Both the position numbers and the translations under genes were made by a program. From assembly GCA_021800275.1 (NCBI GenBank), contig JAJYZB010000009.1:1-64000 (forward strand): a DNA stretch of 64,000 nt, read 5' to 3'. Every line of letters starts with the position of its first letter. The stretch's first letter is position 1. Below, one piece after another: positions 40,599 through 47,049 of the stretch. The notes under the pieces were generated by a model. That model had not been told where the DNA came from. It did not search any database and saw only the letters and a list, made by a program, of their open reading frames with translations. This DNA is from a bacterium (GTDB lineage: Bacteria; Vulcanimicrobiota; JABDET01).

Positions 40599-41294
40599 CT
40601 ACCACAATTCTTTTTCTAAAGTGTTTTTTAGTTTTTTCACACCTTTGAGTATGACTCGAGAGACATTTTTCTGGCTGAGTCCTAGTTTCTTTCCAATTTC
40701 CATTTGGGTTAAATCATAATAAAAGAATAGGAAAATAGCTTTTTTTTCTATTAATAGGAGTTTTTCAATGGCCTGAATCAGCGTGATTTTGTCTTCAACT
40801 GGCAGCTGAAAACTGATTTGTTTTTGGGACCGCAGCTTATGCCTCAGTAAATCAAACTCTTCTTCTTCAGCAGCTGACAGCAGAGGATTAGAAATGGTTT
40901 TTTGGAGTTTTAAAGCTTCCGTGATTCCTTCTTCTGCAATGTTCAGTGATTCTGCTATCTCTTTATGGGTGGGAAGTCTGCCTAATTTTTGTGTAAGTTT
41001 TTCTGATTCCTGGCCAATTTTGTAAAGCAAGAAATTGAGCCAGCGAGGGGGCCTGACCAGGTTCTGTTTATCCCGCAAGTAATGTCTGATTTCCCCCGAA
41101 ATTTGGCTGACGGCATAGTGGTTAAATTCAGATTCTCGGGCTGGATCAAAGTGATCTACAGCTTTAATTAAGCCTACTGCCCCAACCTGAATTAAGTCTT
41201 CTAAAAGTTCGCCATGGCTTTTTCGCAGAAATTTTTTTGCCATAGTTTCAACAAGGGGCATATATTGAAGGATAAAATTTGCCCGATCTTCCAA
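40599..41294 (-). CDS. second SigB/WhiG-type sigma factor
   Basis: 231 residues with region 2 (GELLEDLIQVGAVGLIKAVDHFDPA, EFNHYAVSQISGEIRHYLRDKQNLVRPPRW), region 3 (GRLPTHKEIAESLNIAEEGI) and region 4 (YYDLTQMEIGKKLGLSQKNVSRVILKGVKKLK). TTG start after a GGGAGGA site. No anti-sigma gene adjoins it. It lies just downstream of the second pilC and is convergent with the NRAMP gene, 7 bases between stops. It may serve pilus or stress genes. Confidence 0.9.
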   Translation of the reverse strand: MEDRANFILQYMPLVETMAKKFLRKSHGELLEDLIQVGAVGLIKAVDHFDPARESEFNHYAVSQISGEIRHYLRDKQNLVRPPRWLNFLLYKIGQESEKLTQKLGRLPTHKEIAESLNIAEEGITEALKLQKTISNPLLSAAEEEEFDLLRHKLRSQKQISFQLPVEDKITLIQAIEKLLLIEKKAIFLFFYYDLTQMEIGKKLGLSQKNVSRVILKGVKKLKNTLEKELW

Positions 41295-41358: not shown

Positions 41359-42609
41359 TTATCCTCCGCCATTAGGGTTGCCCAGATGTCCAATTAATCC
41401 ATAGAGAGGCATGAAAACTGAAATAACGATGAATCCTACAATTCCACCCATCCCTAAAATTAAAAGAGGTTCTAACATGGAAGTCAAGGAAGAAAGCATA
41501 TATTCAACTTCGGTGTCATAAAAGTCAGCTATTTTAGACAGCATTGCATCTAAATTTCCGGTTTCTTCTCCTACAGCAACCATCTGTGTAACCATTGGAG
41601 GAAATAAACCAGAGTCTTGCAAGGGACCTGCAATGCTTTCTCCTTCTCTGATGCTTTCTCTAACTTTTATAATGGTTTCAGCAACAACTTCATTGCCTGA
41701 AACTTTTCCAACAATTTCAAGAGCCTGCATAATTGGAACGCCAGAACTTAAAAGGGTTCCAAGGGTTCGACAAAAGCGTGAAATAGAGACCTTTTTGTTG
41801 AGCATTCCAAAAACAGGAATCTGCAGCTTAAATTGATCGAAGTACAGCTTTCCTTTTGGTGTTTGTACCCATTTTGCAAAAATGGCGAAAAGGACGACGA
41901 GAATGACGAGAACAGCAATATCTATATACCATATTCTGACCCCATTGGTGATATCCATTAATATTCTGGTTGGCAGCGGAAGTTTTACATCCATGCCTTT
42001 AAATAATTTGACAAAGGTTGGGAGAATGAATAAGACCAGGAAAGTGACGATTAAAATTGCCATGATTAAAATAACAACAGGGTAGGTGAGAGCAGATTTA
42101 ACTTTTTTCTTTAAATTAAAATCTCTTTCCATAAAACCAGCGAGTCGATCTAAAACTTCATCCAAAACACCTCCAAGTTCTCCCGCCCGCACCATGCTCA
42201 CGTAAAGGTTAGAAAAAACAGTGGGGTATTTAGCCATGGAATTGGAAAGAGATTGTCCTCCTTCTACATCCTTGCGGACAGAGAGAAGAGTCGCTTGAAG
42301 TTTCCTATCTTCTGTTTGTTCAGAGAGGATGTCAAGACATCGGACCATTGCCAATCCTGCATTAATCATAGTAGCAAATTGACGGCTGAAAACGGTTAAA
42401 GCCTGTTCATTAACTTTTTGGAATTGGCGTAAAGAGGCAAAGATATCTTGTTTCCAATCAACCTGGCCGCTTTTTCTTTCCGTAATTTCAATAATTGTAA
42501 GCTTCTGTTCTCGAAGCTTGTTTAAAACCAATCGGTGGCTTTCCGCTTCAATGGTCTCCTGAACAACCCTGCCATCCGCTGTTTTAGCTTTATAAGTATA
42601 TTGAGGCAT
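41359..42609 (-). CDS. pilC: type IV pilus inner-membrane platform protein PilC (copy 2)
   Basis: 416 residues with two T2SF domains, each ending in hydrophobic helices. Landmarks: YTYKAKTADGRVV, the first domain FSRQFATMINAGLAMVRCLDIL, LTYPVVILIMAILIVTFLVLFILP, the second domain ISRFCRTLGTLLSSGVPIMQALEIV, and the closing GFIVISVFMPLYGLIGHLG. PilC couples the PilB/PilT motors to the pilin. The next gene upstream is a paralogue of the same family, separated by 300 bases holding a micro-ORF and hairpins. Confidence 0.95.
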   Translation of the reverse strand: MPQYTYKAKTADGRVVQETIEAESHRLVLNKLREQKLTIIEITERKSGQVDWKQDIFASLRQFQKVNEQALTVFSRQFATMINAGLAMVRCLDILSEQTEDRKLQATLLSVRKDVEGGQSLSNSMAKYPTVFSNLYVSMVRAGELGGVLDEVLDRLAGFMERDFNLKKKVKSALTYPVVILIMAILIVTFLVLFILPTFVKLFKGMDVKLPLPTRILMDITNGVRIWYIDIAVLVILVVLFAIFAKWVQTPKGKLYFDQFKLQIPVFGMLNKKVSISRFCRTLGTLLSSGVPIMQALEIVGKVSGNEVVAETIIKVRESIREGESIAGPLQDSGLFPPMVTQMVAVGEETGNLDAMLSKIADFYDTEVEYMLSSLTSMLEPLLILGMGGIVGFIVISVFMPLYGLIGHLGNPNGGG

Positions 42610-42683
42610 AAAGGCTAACCCCCTCTGAATTTTTAAATCACGTATTTTTGGAACTCGTTAATTTGTTTTGAAAAAACTGAGGC

Positions 42684-42752
42684 TTAAACTCGATAAGCCA
42701 ACCCTACGAGTGTTATTGCAAGATAAAGAAGCCACCACCATGCTGATCCCAT
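42684..42752 (-). CDS. 22-aa hydrophobic micro-protein between the pilC genes
   Basis: Below the ORF-track limit. It reads MGSAWWWLLYLAITLVGLAY plus RV. The ATG has a near-perfect ribosome-binding site, GGAGGTG, five bases upstream. Three consecutive Trp followed by one short membrane helix and a terminal Arg are typical of tiny membrane proteins. It is cotranscribed with the pilus motor genes. It could be a regulator of the pilus platform or a leader peptide. Expression is likely; function is unknown. Confidence 0.65.
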   Translation of the reverse strand: MGSAWWWLLYLAITLVGLAYRV

Positions 42753-42791
42753 TTTTTCACCTCCTCTAAAATTGAATCACCCATATAACTC

Positions 42792-42815
42792 CTGGTGCTG
42801 CAACAGCAGCACCAG
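42792..42815 (-). promoter_or_regulatory. intercistronic hairpin between pilC genes
   Basis: Perfect 10-bp stem CTGGTGCTGC/GCAGCACCAG with a four-base loop. On the minus-strand message it lies 40 bases before the micro-ORF. There is no U run after it, so it is not a simple terminator; an RNA-processing or stability element is more likely. Confidence 0.7.
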
Positions 42816-42858
42816 AGGCTCTCTTAATATTTTGAGCTTTACTGTACCTTCTAGGAGA

Positions 42859-42880
42859 AACAAAAAACTCCTTTCAGGAG
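42859..42880 (-). terminator. weak Rho-independent terminator after the first pilC
   Basis: On the minus strand: CTCCT-GAA-AGGAG followed by TTTTTTG, starting about 30 bases past the pilC stop. The short stem suggests partial termination or attenuation between the two pilC genes. Confidence 0.55.
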
Positions 42881-42908
42881 CATAGAGAGTCTTGACAGCA
42901 GTTTTATC

Positions 42909-44126
42909 TCAGCCTGTCATGCTGAAATGTCCAATGAGTGAGTAAATGGGCATAAAAATTGAAATAAGCACAAATCCGACAATCATTCCCAGGACCGTAA
43001 TTAAAAGCGGTTCGAGAAGTTTAGTGAATTGAGTTAAAGCTAAATCGATTTCCATGTCGTAAAAATCGGAGACTTTTCTCAGCATTTTGGGAAGTTCACC
43101 TGTTTGTTCTCCTACTTGCAGCATGCTGATAGCGAGCGGGGGAAAGATTTTTGATTCTTCCAGAGGCGCAGAAATAGTGCTGCCATAATTAACTGCATGT
43201 CTAACTTGATGCACAACCTCATTCATCACATCATTTCCTGTTACACCGCCAACAATTTCAAGAGACTGCATCATAGGAATTCCTGACGCAGCCAGTGTTG
43301 CAAGTGTTCTGCAAAAACGTGACGCTGCTACTTTTTTATTCAAGTCGCCAAAAATAGGCATGAATAAAAGCCACTGATGGTAGTGTCTCCTCCCTACCGC
43401 AGTTCGCAAATACTGCCACAGTAAGAAGGCAAGCGTTCCCATAATTCCTGCGGATAAAAGGATGAATAATGGATTTTTAGCGAACATAACCAAAAAAATT
43501 AAAATTTGTGTTGGCAGAGGTGTTGCCACATGAAACCCGCGAAATAGGCGAGTGAATCTGGGTAAAATATAAATGACCAGAAAAAATGCGACCAGAATAC
43601 AGAAGCTAAAAACAACCAGCGGATAGGCAAGAGCAGCTTTTAAGCGTTTTCTGATGAAAGTGTCTTTTTCAAGATAGTCTGCCATTTTTTGCAGAATATT
43701 AACAAGTTCTCCTGATAATTCTCCGGCTTTTATCATTTCTAAATAAATCGTGTTAAAGACGTCAGGATAACGAGCCAGCGCCTGGGATAGGGAGCTCCCA
43801 GCTTTTACATGTTCTCTGACAAGAAGGATGATATCTTCAAGTCTTCGATTGTCTCCTTTGCGGCTGAGTAAATCCAGGCAGCGCATGATCGGAAGCCCTG
43901 CTTCTATCATAGCCGCAAATTCCCTCGTAAAAATGGCAATACTATCTAGATTAACTTTTTTGAGTCTGTGAAAAAAAAGAAGGAATTTAGTCTGTTCCTG
44001 AATTTTTTTTATTTCATACCGGTACTGTTTTAAGGAATCAAGAGCCTGAATTTTAGTTTTCGCTTCGACAAGTCCTCTGACTGCTCTTCCCTCATCATTG
44101 ACTGCATCGTAAACGTAAGTAGGCAT
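42909..44126 (-). CDS. pilC: type IV pilus inner-membrane platform protein PilC (copy 1)
   Basis: 405 residues, same architecture as the downstream copy: YVYDAVNDEGRAVRGLVEAKT, FTREFAAMIEAGLPIMRCLDLL, first membrane pair LAYPLVVFSFCILVAFFLVIYILP, ASRFCRTLATLAASGIPMMQSLEIV, and the end GFVLISIFMPIYSLIGHF. The two proteins are clearly related but well diverged, so this is an old duplication. It follows pilT by 25 bases. The pair may form a heteromer or serve two different pilus or secretion machines. Confidence 0.95.
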   Translation of the reverse strand: MPTYVYDAVNDEGRAVRGLVEAKTKIQALDSLKQYRYEIKKIQEQTKFLLFFHRLKKVNLDSIAIFTREFAAMIEAGLPIMRCLDLLSRKGDNRRLEDIILLVREHVKAGSSLSQALARYPDVFNTIYLEMIKAGELSGELVNILQKMADYLEKDTFIRKRLKAALAYPLVVFSFCILVAFFLVIYILPRFTRLFRGFHVATPLPTQILIFLVMFAKNPLFILLSAGIMGTLAFLLWQYLRTAVGRRHYHQWLLFMPIFGDLNKKVAASRFCRTLATLAASGIPMMQSLEIVGGVTGNDVMNEVVHQVRHAVNYGSTISAPLEESKIFPPLAISMLQVGEQTGELPKMLRKVSDFYDMEIDLALTQFTKLLEPLLITVLGMIVGFVLISIFMPIYSLIGHFSMTG

Positions 44127-44151: not shown

Positions 44152-45237
44152 TTAATTTGTTTCTTCGATATGGCGGCGAAGCTCATCAGGATGAGCGGTT
44201 CTAGCCATAGCTTCTTCGGCAGAAATTTGTTTGCTTCGATAGAGATCCAGCAGGCTTTGATCCATAGTGAACATGCCAAATTTAGACCCTGTTTGCAGAT
44301 GAGAGTAAATTTGATGTGTTTTACCATCGCGGATTAGACTTCGGACTGCTGGAGTAGCAAGCAGAACTTCTGTGGCAGGTGTTCTACCAATGCCGCTGGC
44401 ATGAGGGATTAACTGCATGGAGATAATAGCTTCTAAAACACTTGCCAATTGAATTCTAACTTGCTGCTGTTGATGGGGGGGAAAGACATCAATCACTCGA
44501 TCTATGGTTTGAGCTGCATCAACGGTATGCAGTGTGGATAGAACCAGATGTCCTGTTTCTGCCGCTGTTAAAGTTGCAGCAATGGTTTCTGGATCTCGCA
44601 TTTCTCCCACCATAATGACGTTTGGATCTTCACGCAGAACTGAACGTAAAGCGATTGACCAGGACTGCGCATCCTGTCCAATTTCTCTCTGGTTGATCAT
44701 TGATTTTTTATGTCCATGAACATATTCGATGGGGTCCTCAATGGTTATAATATGACACTGCCGCTCAGAATTGATGGCATCTATCATGCAGGCTAAAGTG
44801 GTGGATTTTCCCACGCCAGTAGCTCCAGTTACAAGGATTAAACCATAGGGGCGTCTAATGATTTCATCGAGAATTTGCGGTAGATTAAGCTCTTCTCGGG
44901 ATTGAATGGTATGGGGAACATGCCTGAAAGCTGCTCCATAAGCCCCTCTTTGTTTAAAAACATTGACCCTAAATCTTCCGTAACCTTTGACCCCATGGGA
45001 ACAGTCAAGATCCCAGAATTTTTCCAGTTTTTCTTTTTGTTTGTCATTGAGAATTCCATAAATCAATCTTTTCGTGTCTTCTGCTGTCAATCTGGGAAAT
45101 TCGGTTGGGGTCAGTTTCCCATCAATTCGGAGCATGGGAGGAAGTCCTACAGCCAGATGAAGATCAGATGCACCTCTTTCAACTGTTAATTTTAAAAGTT
45201 CGTCCATTCCAAGTCTAAGAGGTTCTGTTAACATCAT
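44152..45237 (-). CDS. pilT: pilus retraction ATPase PilT
   Basis: 361 residues, hexameric ATPase that depolymerises the pilus for twitching. All motifs are intact: Walker A TGATGVGKSTT, Asp box ITIEDPIEYVHGHKKS, Walker B VIMVGEMRDPETI, His box GHLVLSTLHTVDAAQTIDR. The C-terminal region AVRSLIRDGKTHQIY corresponds to the retraction-specific AIRNLIRE motif. It begins four bases after the pilB stop. Intact motifs contrast with the degenerate paralogue at 31-32 kb. Confidence 0.96.
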   Translation of the reverse strand: MMLTEPLRLGMDELLKLTVERGASDLHLAVGLPPMLRIDGKLTPTEFPRLTAEDTKRLIYGILNDKQKEKLEKFWDLDCSHGVKGYGRFRVNVFKQRGAYGAAFRHVPHTIQSREELNLPQILDEIIRRPYGLILVTGATGVGKSTTLACMIDAINSERQCHIITIEDPIEYVHGHKKSMINQREIGQDAQSWSIALRSVLREDPNVIMVGEMRDPETIAATLTAAETGHLVLSTLHTVDAAQTIDRVIDVFPPHQQQQVRIQLASVLEAIISMQLIPHASGIGRTPATEVLLATPAVRSLIRDGKTHQIYSHLQTGSKFGMFTMDQSLLDLYRSKQISAEEAMARTAHPDELRRHIEETN

Positions 45238-45240
45238 TGA

Positions 45241-46971
45241 CTATTCTCCTTCCATGTAAATAACTCTTAAAGTTTCTTCAATACTGGTGATTCCGTCCAG
45301 AACTTTGCGAATCCCATCATCCTGCAAAGTCCTCATCCCTTCTTCCAAAGCCGATTTTTTAATCTCAGTGGATGAAGCCTTTTGCAGAGTTAATCCTCTA
45401 ATTCGATCCGTCAGCATCATAAGTTCATGGATACCTGTTCTTCCTTTATAGCCTGTTTGTTTGCAAGCATCGCAGCCTCTTCCTTTATAGAAGTTTATTT
45501 CTTCCCCAGCATACATTCCTAATCCAAATTTGCGCACAGCTTCTTGGGGAGGACTGTAAGGCTCTTTGCAGTTTGGACAAATCAATCGAGCCAGTCTTTG
45601 AGCCTCGACTCCAATTAAAGCTGATGCAATAAGAAAGGGTTCAATTCCCATGTCAATGAGGCGGTTAACTGCTGATGGAGCGTCATTGGTGTGCAGGGTT
45701 GAAAGCACTAGGTGCCCTGTTAAAGCGGCTTCTATGGCGATTCGCGCTGTTTCAGCGTCTCGGATTTCTCCTACCATGATGATGTCAGGGTCTTGACGCA
45801 GAAATGATCTTAAAGCATTTGCAAAGGTAAGTCCTGCTTTTTCATTGACTTGAACCTGGTTAATTCCTGGAAGCTGATATTCAACAGGATCTTCGATTGT
45901 GATAATGTTCTGCACGCCGGTATTGATTTTATTCAAACAAGAATAAAGAGTCGTGGATTTTCCTGATCCCGTAGGTCCTGTCACAAGAATCATTCCATAG
46001 GGTTTACAGATCATGGCTTCTAATTTTTCTTTGATGTCCGGATAAATGCCCAGTTTATCCAGTCCCAGCATGACTGAACTTTTGTCTAGAATACGTAAAA
46101 CAGCTTTTTCCCCATGAACTGTAGGAATCGTTGAAACACGAAGGTCGAACTCTTTATTATCGTGTTTTAAGTGAATCTTTCCATCTTGAGGAATTCTCCT
46201 TTCAGCAATATCCATACTGGCCATAATTTTCACACGAGAGATCATGGGGGCTTGAATATGTTTAGGCGGGTTCATCACATCATGAAGAACTCCGTCAATT
46301 CTGTATCTTACACGGACCTGTTTAGTGTCAGGTTCTACATGAATATCTGATGCTTTCTCATTGATGGCTTGAGAAATAATGAGATTTACGACTTTAACAA
46401 TGGGAGCTTCATCAACCAGTTCTTTTAATTTGTCAACTGAAATTTCTTCTTCTTCCTGGATCGCTTCTAACGCAGAACCTGTGTCTGACGCTTCGAGTGT
46501 TTTTACGGTTTCTTCGACCTCTGCAAGTTCAGTCACTCCGAAATTGCGGTCAATAACTTTAGTTATTCCCGCTTCTGTTGCGATCATGGGTTGAATGTCA
46601 AATCCCGTGATCAATCGAATGTCATCAATGGCAAGAACGTTTAAGGGGTCAGCCATGGCGACCGAGAGTTTGCTGCCTATTTGTCCAACAGGTACTACCT
46701 TGTATCGTCTGGCAAGGTGTTCTGGAATAGTTTTGATCATCTCAGGATCGATTTCTTGGTTATCTAGATCCACAAAAGCAACACCCATCTGTTTTCCCAT
46801 GACTTCAGTAATGTCTTTTTCAGTAAGGAAGTTGAGTTGAATCAGGACTTTTTCAAGTTTTTCGCCAGTTTTTTTCTGCTGATCAATCGCTTTCTGGAGT
46901 TGGCGTTCTGTGATCAGCTTTTCTTCAATCAGAAGTTCTGACATATCTTGTTTAGATGATTTAGTTACCAT
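45241..46971 (-). CDS. pilB: pilus extension ATPase PilB (GspE family)
   Basis: 576 residues. The N-terminal GspE-II domain (LLIEEKLITERQLQKAIDQQ, MGVAFVDLDNQEIDPEMIKTIP) is followed by the ATPase core with Walker A LVTGPTGSGKSTT, Asp box IITIEDPVEYQLPG, Walker B IIMVGEIRDAETA, His box GHLVLSTLHTNDAPSA. A four-Cys zinc site is present (ICPNCKEPY, GCDACKQTGYKGRTG). It is first in pilB-pilT-pilC-pilC and driven by the near-consensus promoter upstream. Pilins and pilM-Q are not in the window. Confidence 0.97.
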   Translation of the reverse strand: MVTKSSKQDMSELLIEEKLITERQLQKAIDQQKKTGEKLEKVLIQLNFLTEKDITEVMGKQMGVAFVDLDNQEIDPEMIKTIPEHLARRYKVVPVGQIGSKLSVAMADPLNVLAIDDIRLITGFDIQPMIATEAGITKVIDRNFGVTELAEVEETVKTLEASDTGSALEAIQEEEEISVDKLKELVDEAPIVKVVNLIISQAINEKASDIHVEPDTKQVRVRYRIDGVLHDVMNPPKHIQAPMISRVKIMASMDIAERRIPQDGKIHLKHDNKEFDLRVSTIPTVHGEKAVLRILDKSSVMLGLDKLGIYPDIKEKLEAMICKPYGMILVTGPTGSGKSTTLYSCLNKINTGVQNIITIEDPVEYQLPGINQVQVNEKAGLTFANALRSFLRQDPDIIMVGEIRDAETARIAIEAALTGHLVLSTLHTNDAPSAVNRLIDMGIEPFLIASALIGVEAQRLARLICPNCKEPYSPPQEAVRKFGLGMYAGEEINFYKGRGCDACKQTGYKGRTGIHELMMLTDRIRGLTLQKASSTEIKKSALEEGMRTLQDDGIRKVLDGITSIEETLRVIYMEGE

Positions 46972-47021: not shown

Positions 47022-47049
47022 ATTATATCATACCTTGTTTTAATGTCAA
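47022..47049 (-). promoter_or_regulatory. near-consensus sigma-70 promoter of the pilBTCC operon
   Basis: On the minus strand: TTGACA, a 16-base spacer, TATAAT, with TGA before the -10 (extended -10). It overlaps the last bases of the upstream TPR gene and gives a leader of about 45 bases before pilB. This is the best promoter match I see in the window. Confidence 0.85.

Follow-up and report, generated by a model that had tools for sequence, protein, structure and literature searches.

CydX of cytochrome bd, KdpF of the Kdp pump and CcmD are very short proteins, each predicted to form a single membrane helix, and their genes share an operon with that of the large membrane subunit. All three are treated as small membrane proteins (PMC10903887). 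In the PilC/GspF/PulF platform, PulF has been described, from modelling and crosslinking, as a trimer that has a central channel (PMC10790770). An unanswered question is how the PilC/GspF platform couples the cytoplasmic motors to the pilus as it grows; the literature that we searched describes no micro-subunit of this platform. A 20-residue partner fixed beside pilC throughout a phylum, such as the candidate presented here, would offer a small and easily mutated handle on that question, and it illustrates that a gene too short for the usual annotation limits can be discovered via the conservation of its neighbourhood.

The window (a 64,000-nucleotide stretch of contig JAJYZB010000009.1) comes from a member of the phylum that we take to be Candidatus Eremiobacterota, which the NCBI taxonomy now lists as Vulcanimicrobiota. 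It carries on the minus strand a run of pilus genes in the order pilB, pilT, pilC1, micro-ORF and pilC2, as called by NCBIfam profiles (PilB and PilT scored above cut-off; for both PilCs, the best-scoring family was taken, at scores below the equivalog cut-offs). The first gene of the run encodes the extension ATPase PilB (45241..46971) and is followed by the gene of the retraction ATPase PilT (44152..45237), the upstream neighbour of the micro-ORF in other genomes. Then come pilC1 (42909..44126), encoding a diverged second PilC that is 44% identical to pilC2, and, beyond the micro-ORF, pilC2 itself (41359..42609). The latter encodes a type IV pilus platform protein with orthologues that are 64–88% identical, and corresponds to the PilC type that comes after the micro-ORF in other genomes. 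A perfect consensus promoter (TTGACA-16-TATAAT with an extended TG) is present on the minus strand at 47022–47049, about 50 bases 5′ of pilB. Directly 3′ of pilC2 lies a gene encoding a SigB/F/G-like sigma factor (40599–41294), and a similar sigma-factor-like sequence follows pilC at three other loci (L021, L024 and L027), hinting at a possible conserved association of pilC with a sigma factor.

The micro-ORF (42684..42752, minus strand) consists of an ATG start, 22 codons in all and a stop, and encodes the peptide MGSAWWWLLYLAITLVGLAYRV. Five nucleotides before the ATG stands the Shine-Dalgarno sequence GAGGAGGTG (42766–42758, minus strand), a strong signal that is rare among the short ORFs of the window: only four of the 782 ORFs of 15–40 codons have the 6-nt Shine-Dalgarno core, this one among them. 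The peptide is predicted to form a single membrane helix, with the Trp run at its N-terminal end and a basic residue beside the C-terminus. The Trp-rich 22-aa micro-ORF between tandem pilC genes, and the near-perfect ribosome-binding site that the earlier note attributed to it, are thus both as described there. The note had also suggested that the spacer could encode a pilus regulator, to be checked by conservation of the peptide in relatives; the peptide turned out to be conserved across the phylum, which strongly supports a pilus-linked micro-protein, for which a regulatory role would be one conceivable function.

We read the sequence 5′ of pilC at 28 loci of the phylum, and most of them encode this peptide. 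A search profile built from 22 peptide sequences and run on 149 genomes of the phylum then gave 41 matches in 40 genomes at E ≤ 2e-5, the next match appearing only at E = 0.14. The sister species G001 (JAKAVV010000001.1), whose PilCs are 80% and 88% identical to those of the window, encodes MLPSGWWWLLFLAMTLVGLAYRV behind GGGAGGTGAAAAA, and the more distant G004 encodes MWWWLLVLALIIVGNTGKI, again between two pilC genes. A purine-rich Shine-Dalgarno sequence precedes most of the orthologous micro-ORFs as well. The family is 19–26 residues long and its consensus is xxSxWWWLxPLAIxxVGxLTKI (34 sequences). One Trp is invariant in this alignment, one Leu is nearly so, and a Gly is present in 29 of the 34 members; by hydropathy, the columns after the Trp run form a strongly hydrophobic core. 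The last four positions include a basic residue in 26 of the 34 members, the first ten in none. The genomes that have the micro-ORF contain one each, although some genomes hold about 30 PilC/GspF paralogues, with the exception of one genome with two: in one lineage, a tandem pair of micro-ORFs stands upstream of pilC (L101:2120–2281; G062:C262:2126–2278, corresponding to the two matches in G062). No match to the peptide above cut-off was detected in Pfam, NCBIfam, PHROGs or PDB (the family scans covered members of at least 20 residues), nor any in a plasmid search, and our literature search retrieved no paper describing such a peptide and no family name. A global smORF catalogue includes ORFs of this length (PMC11364881), and individual sequences of the family may be present there without annotation.

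The codon statistics, calculated on a 17-codon core of 35 different sequences, show that selection acts on the protein. The pN/pS ratio is 0.23 for pairs differing by up to 25% and 0.31 for those differing by up to 35%, and the second codon position has the lowest entropy, the third the highest. Pairwise similarity in frame amounts to 48, vs 11 (sd 4) when columns are shuffled (the best of 500 shuffles reached 25). Selection extends along the whole peptide and is not limited to the Trp codons. The micro-ORF is thus a real, unannotated gene located directly 5′ of pilC, and the important part of what the spacer contains.

We combined the coordinates of the micro-ORF, pilC2 and pilT matches of each genome to determine gene order. 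A pilT orthologue is found upstream on the same strand for 40 of the 41 copies, and pilC2 follows on the same contig for 37, at a distance of 16–242 nt (median 45; one distance, 230 nt, is too large because of a gap in the sequence where pilC starts). Wherever the contig allows a check, the copy is flanked by pilT and pilC, all three on one strand. A second pilC between pilT and the micro-ORF is present in three genomes only, those of the window's genus (the window and G001) and G004. This order indicates that the unit is pilT–micro-ORF–pilC, pilC1 being an addition in front. In these three genomes, the inserted pilC1 encodes a second PilC that sits on a long branch.

The micro-ORF also co-occurs with one PilC type, being present in 37 of the 38 genomes with a strong pilC2 match, while the 108 other genomes show neither. 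The single genome without it, G046, is 61% complete; its PilC is only 58% identical, sits in a different context and has no micro-ORF upstream. Three genomes (G003, G059 and G062) carry the micro-ORF but show no pilC2 match that passes the threshold, which probably reflects the end of the contig. In two families, f8 and f16, this pilT type, pilC2 and the peptide are all missing together; with micro-ORF and PilC gene side by side in the phylum, their loss as a unit is no proof by itself that they function jointly. One f8 genome (G009, a single contig) probably corresponds to Vulcanimicrobium strain WC8-2 (PMC9758169), for which production of type IV pili has been reported. Its best PilC is only 32% identical and it has no micro-ORF, so that, if the assignment is right, pili as such do not require the peptide. 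This pili-forming organism, probably Vulcanimicrobium alpinum, represents a natural negative control.

Given the conservation of the micro-ORF, the selection on its coding sequence, its strict gene order and its co-occurrence with one PilC type, we are inclined, with some reserve, to view it as a gene that would be translated into a single-helix inner-membrane protein of about 20 residues, acting as an accessory subunit or an assembly or stability factor of the PilC platform. The ribosome would produce this micro-protein from its own strong Shine-Dalgarno sequence, within the pilus operon and just before PilC. The helix would then insert with the Trp run at one face of the membrane and the conserved Lys/Arg near the C-terminus at the cytoplasmic face, and could pack onto the membrane helices of the PilC translated next, with a putative effect on the pilus. 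AlphaFold2 models of natural in-frame read-throughs of micro-ORF and PilC (L014 and L003, with the stop read as Gly) gave the micro-helix a pLDDT of about 41–54 and no confident placement.

Beyond the phylum, the pilC loci of Rubrobacter, Planctomycetota, Verrucomicrobiota, Omnitrophota and Thermincola showed no copy 5′ of the gene. There was no credible match either in 31 genomes reached via the PilC loci of these groups or in 349, 297 and 285 genomes of three phyla. Two matches at E = 0.001 were rejected as chance, one being antisense inside a gene for a Lon-like protease and the other located in a region without pilus genes. A wider sample yielded one real case, G1193 of a second phylum, which encodes MGWWWLLALAIILVGLSYPDQF behind AAAGGAGGTGAAATT; this peptide is 70% identical to that of the window over the aligned part, bearing in mind that homology of 20-residue hydrophobic peptides is not provable from sequence. 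The first out-of-phylum match (E = 0.0017 among 320 genomes) was weak by itself, and what lends the case credibility is that the gene turned out to be conserved. All seven genomes of this second phylum encode a similar peptide, well conserved in six genomes of one family (pN/pS 0.12) and present in a weaker version, MWWWLLALVFFLVLENEKII, in the seventh. In the six genomes of that family, the micro-protein reads MGWWWL(V/L)xLAI(I/L)LVGLSYPD(E/Q/T)F (L142–L147 around position 1501; L171:9378–9935; L172:10292–10879), and it stands together with a Zn_ribbon_TFIIB gene behind differing genes, encoding clostripain-like or PBP2-like proteins.

The best PilC of five of the seven second-phylum genomes is 57–59% identical to pilC2, and the two others (G1275 and G1279), both incomplete, show none such. 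PilCs of Rubrobacter are 47–48% identical to pilC2, in a sample that consists of loci with certain short patterns and is no exhaustive ranking. In a PilC tree, the peptide-associated PilCs group together, with one peptide-free row (G046) among them; this is rough support only, given the numerous unresolved forks and the long branches.

The second phylum bears directly on the main rival explanation, in which the peptide is a general small membrane protein (involved in envelope stress, membrane-protein insertion or as a protease adaptor) with a gene that just happens to lie in the pilus operon of Eremiobacterota. In the six genomes of one family, the gene is located upstream of a Zn_ribbon_TFIIB (PF13453) gene and not of pilC or any other pilus gene, as expected of such a protein. 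However, all checkable copies of Eremiobacterota occupy the slot between pilT and pilC, and genomes without this pilT/pilC pair also lack the peptide, so that we regard this explanation as rather unlikely, if still deserving real weight. Extending the preferred reading of a PilC partner beyond one phylum, we tentatively suggest that the micro-protein might be an overlooked, dedicated subunit of about 20 aa in one lineage of type IV pilus platforms, one that would predate the split of at least two phyla, bind PilC and tune either assembly or the coupling to PilB/PilT.

We consider it improbable that the micro-ORF is a cis-acting leader, whose translation rather than product would control pilC by translational coupling or by an attenuation mechanism that senses Trp supply. 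Its fixed place just 5′ of pilC and its strong Shine-Dalgarno sequence would fit such a role. So would the Trp run, as in trp leader peptides, and trp-type attenuators likewise place a short, Trp-rich ORF 5′ of a structural gene. However, the micro-protein differs from them in that amino-acid selection spans the whole peptide, beyond the Trp codons, and in that the number of Trp is not conserved (one, two or three; a single one in 5 of 34 members). Moreover, half of the 37 spacers to pilC measure at most 45 nt (range 16–242), too short for pairs of terminator and antiterminator hairpins. These three points make a leader less likely, and the similar peptide of the second phylum is not upstream of pilC. 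An amino-acid attenuator was rejected as a class for the micro-ORF, which presents no conserved run of regulatory codons (1–3 Trp) and, with spacers this short in half of the copies and no Rfam leader in the window, no sign of a terminator and antiterminator.

The earlier note had also proposed that a weak terminator and a perfect hairpin in the spacer set the ratio of the two PilCs. The 10-bp hairpin with its 4-nt loop is present as described (42792..42815, minus strand; arms 42792–42801 and 42806–42815); it is not followed by a T-run and is therefore not an intrinsic terminator. The hairpin sequence occurs once in the window, and a repeat element was rejected as its nature. As for the weak terminator, a 6-bp stem (42881–42867, minus strand) followed by the T-run TTTTTTGTTT does exist; its significance did not hold, since 8 kb contain six terminator-like sites vs 7.4 expected from shuffles, which places this one at chance level. 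The terminator scan detected a second such site at 42699–42681, overlapping the end of the micro-ORF. Folding of the 299-nt spacer is no better than that of its own shuffles (z = −0.98), and an Rfam scan of the window gave no match, neither to a leader RNA nor to an antisense RNA. The spacer of G001, which measures 213 nt, lacks the 10-bp hairpin and the 5′ arm of the 42867–42881 stem and retains the micro-ORF. The hairpin is thus a real but species-specific feature, an RNA-structure reading of the spacer was rejected on these grounds (fold, conservation and Rfam), and the micro-ORF is the only one of the three spacer items to be conserved, indicating that hairpin and terminator are not the important part. 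Although both structures are present in the window, in 37 of the 40 genomes the stretch from pilT to the micro-ORF is free of a second pilC, so that setting a ratio of two PilCs was not the ancestral role; with neither structure intact in G001, we judge a ratio device very improbable. A small hydrophobic toxin of a type I toxin-antitoxin pair is hardly credible either, the peptide resembling one in size and hydrophobicity only, whereas its single operon position and long-term retention throughout the phylum contrast with the patchy spread of such toxins and Rfam reveals no antisense RNA.

Among known components of pilus systems, type IV minor pilins resemble the micro-protein in having a short hydrophobic helix encoded in a pilus operon, but the micro-protein has neither a prepilin peptidase site nor a globular domain. 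A type IV prepilin was rejected, as inspection by eye of the 34 aligned members found no class III signal peptide with a G/A cleavage site and Glu5. The PilC/GspF/PulF platform is the operon partner of the micro-protein, which is separate from PilC and does not figure among the known platform components. Since the tests for membership in any known family failed where they were made, the peptide would be CydX/KdpF-like in mode only. Similar to CydX, KdpF and CcmD, it is very short, well below about 50 residues, has one helix (predicted by hydropathy only) and is encoded with a large membrane subunit, PilC (37 copies). It differs from them in its even shorter length of 19–26 residues, in sharing no Pfam or NCBIfam similarity, and in its putative partner, which is the platform protein of a pilus.
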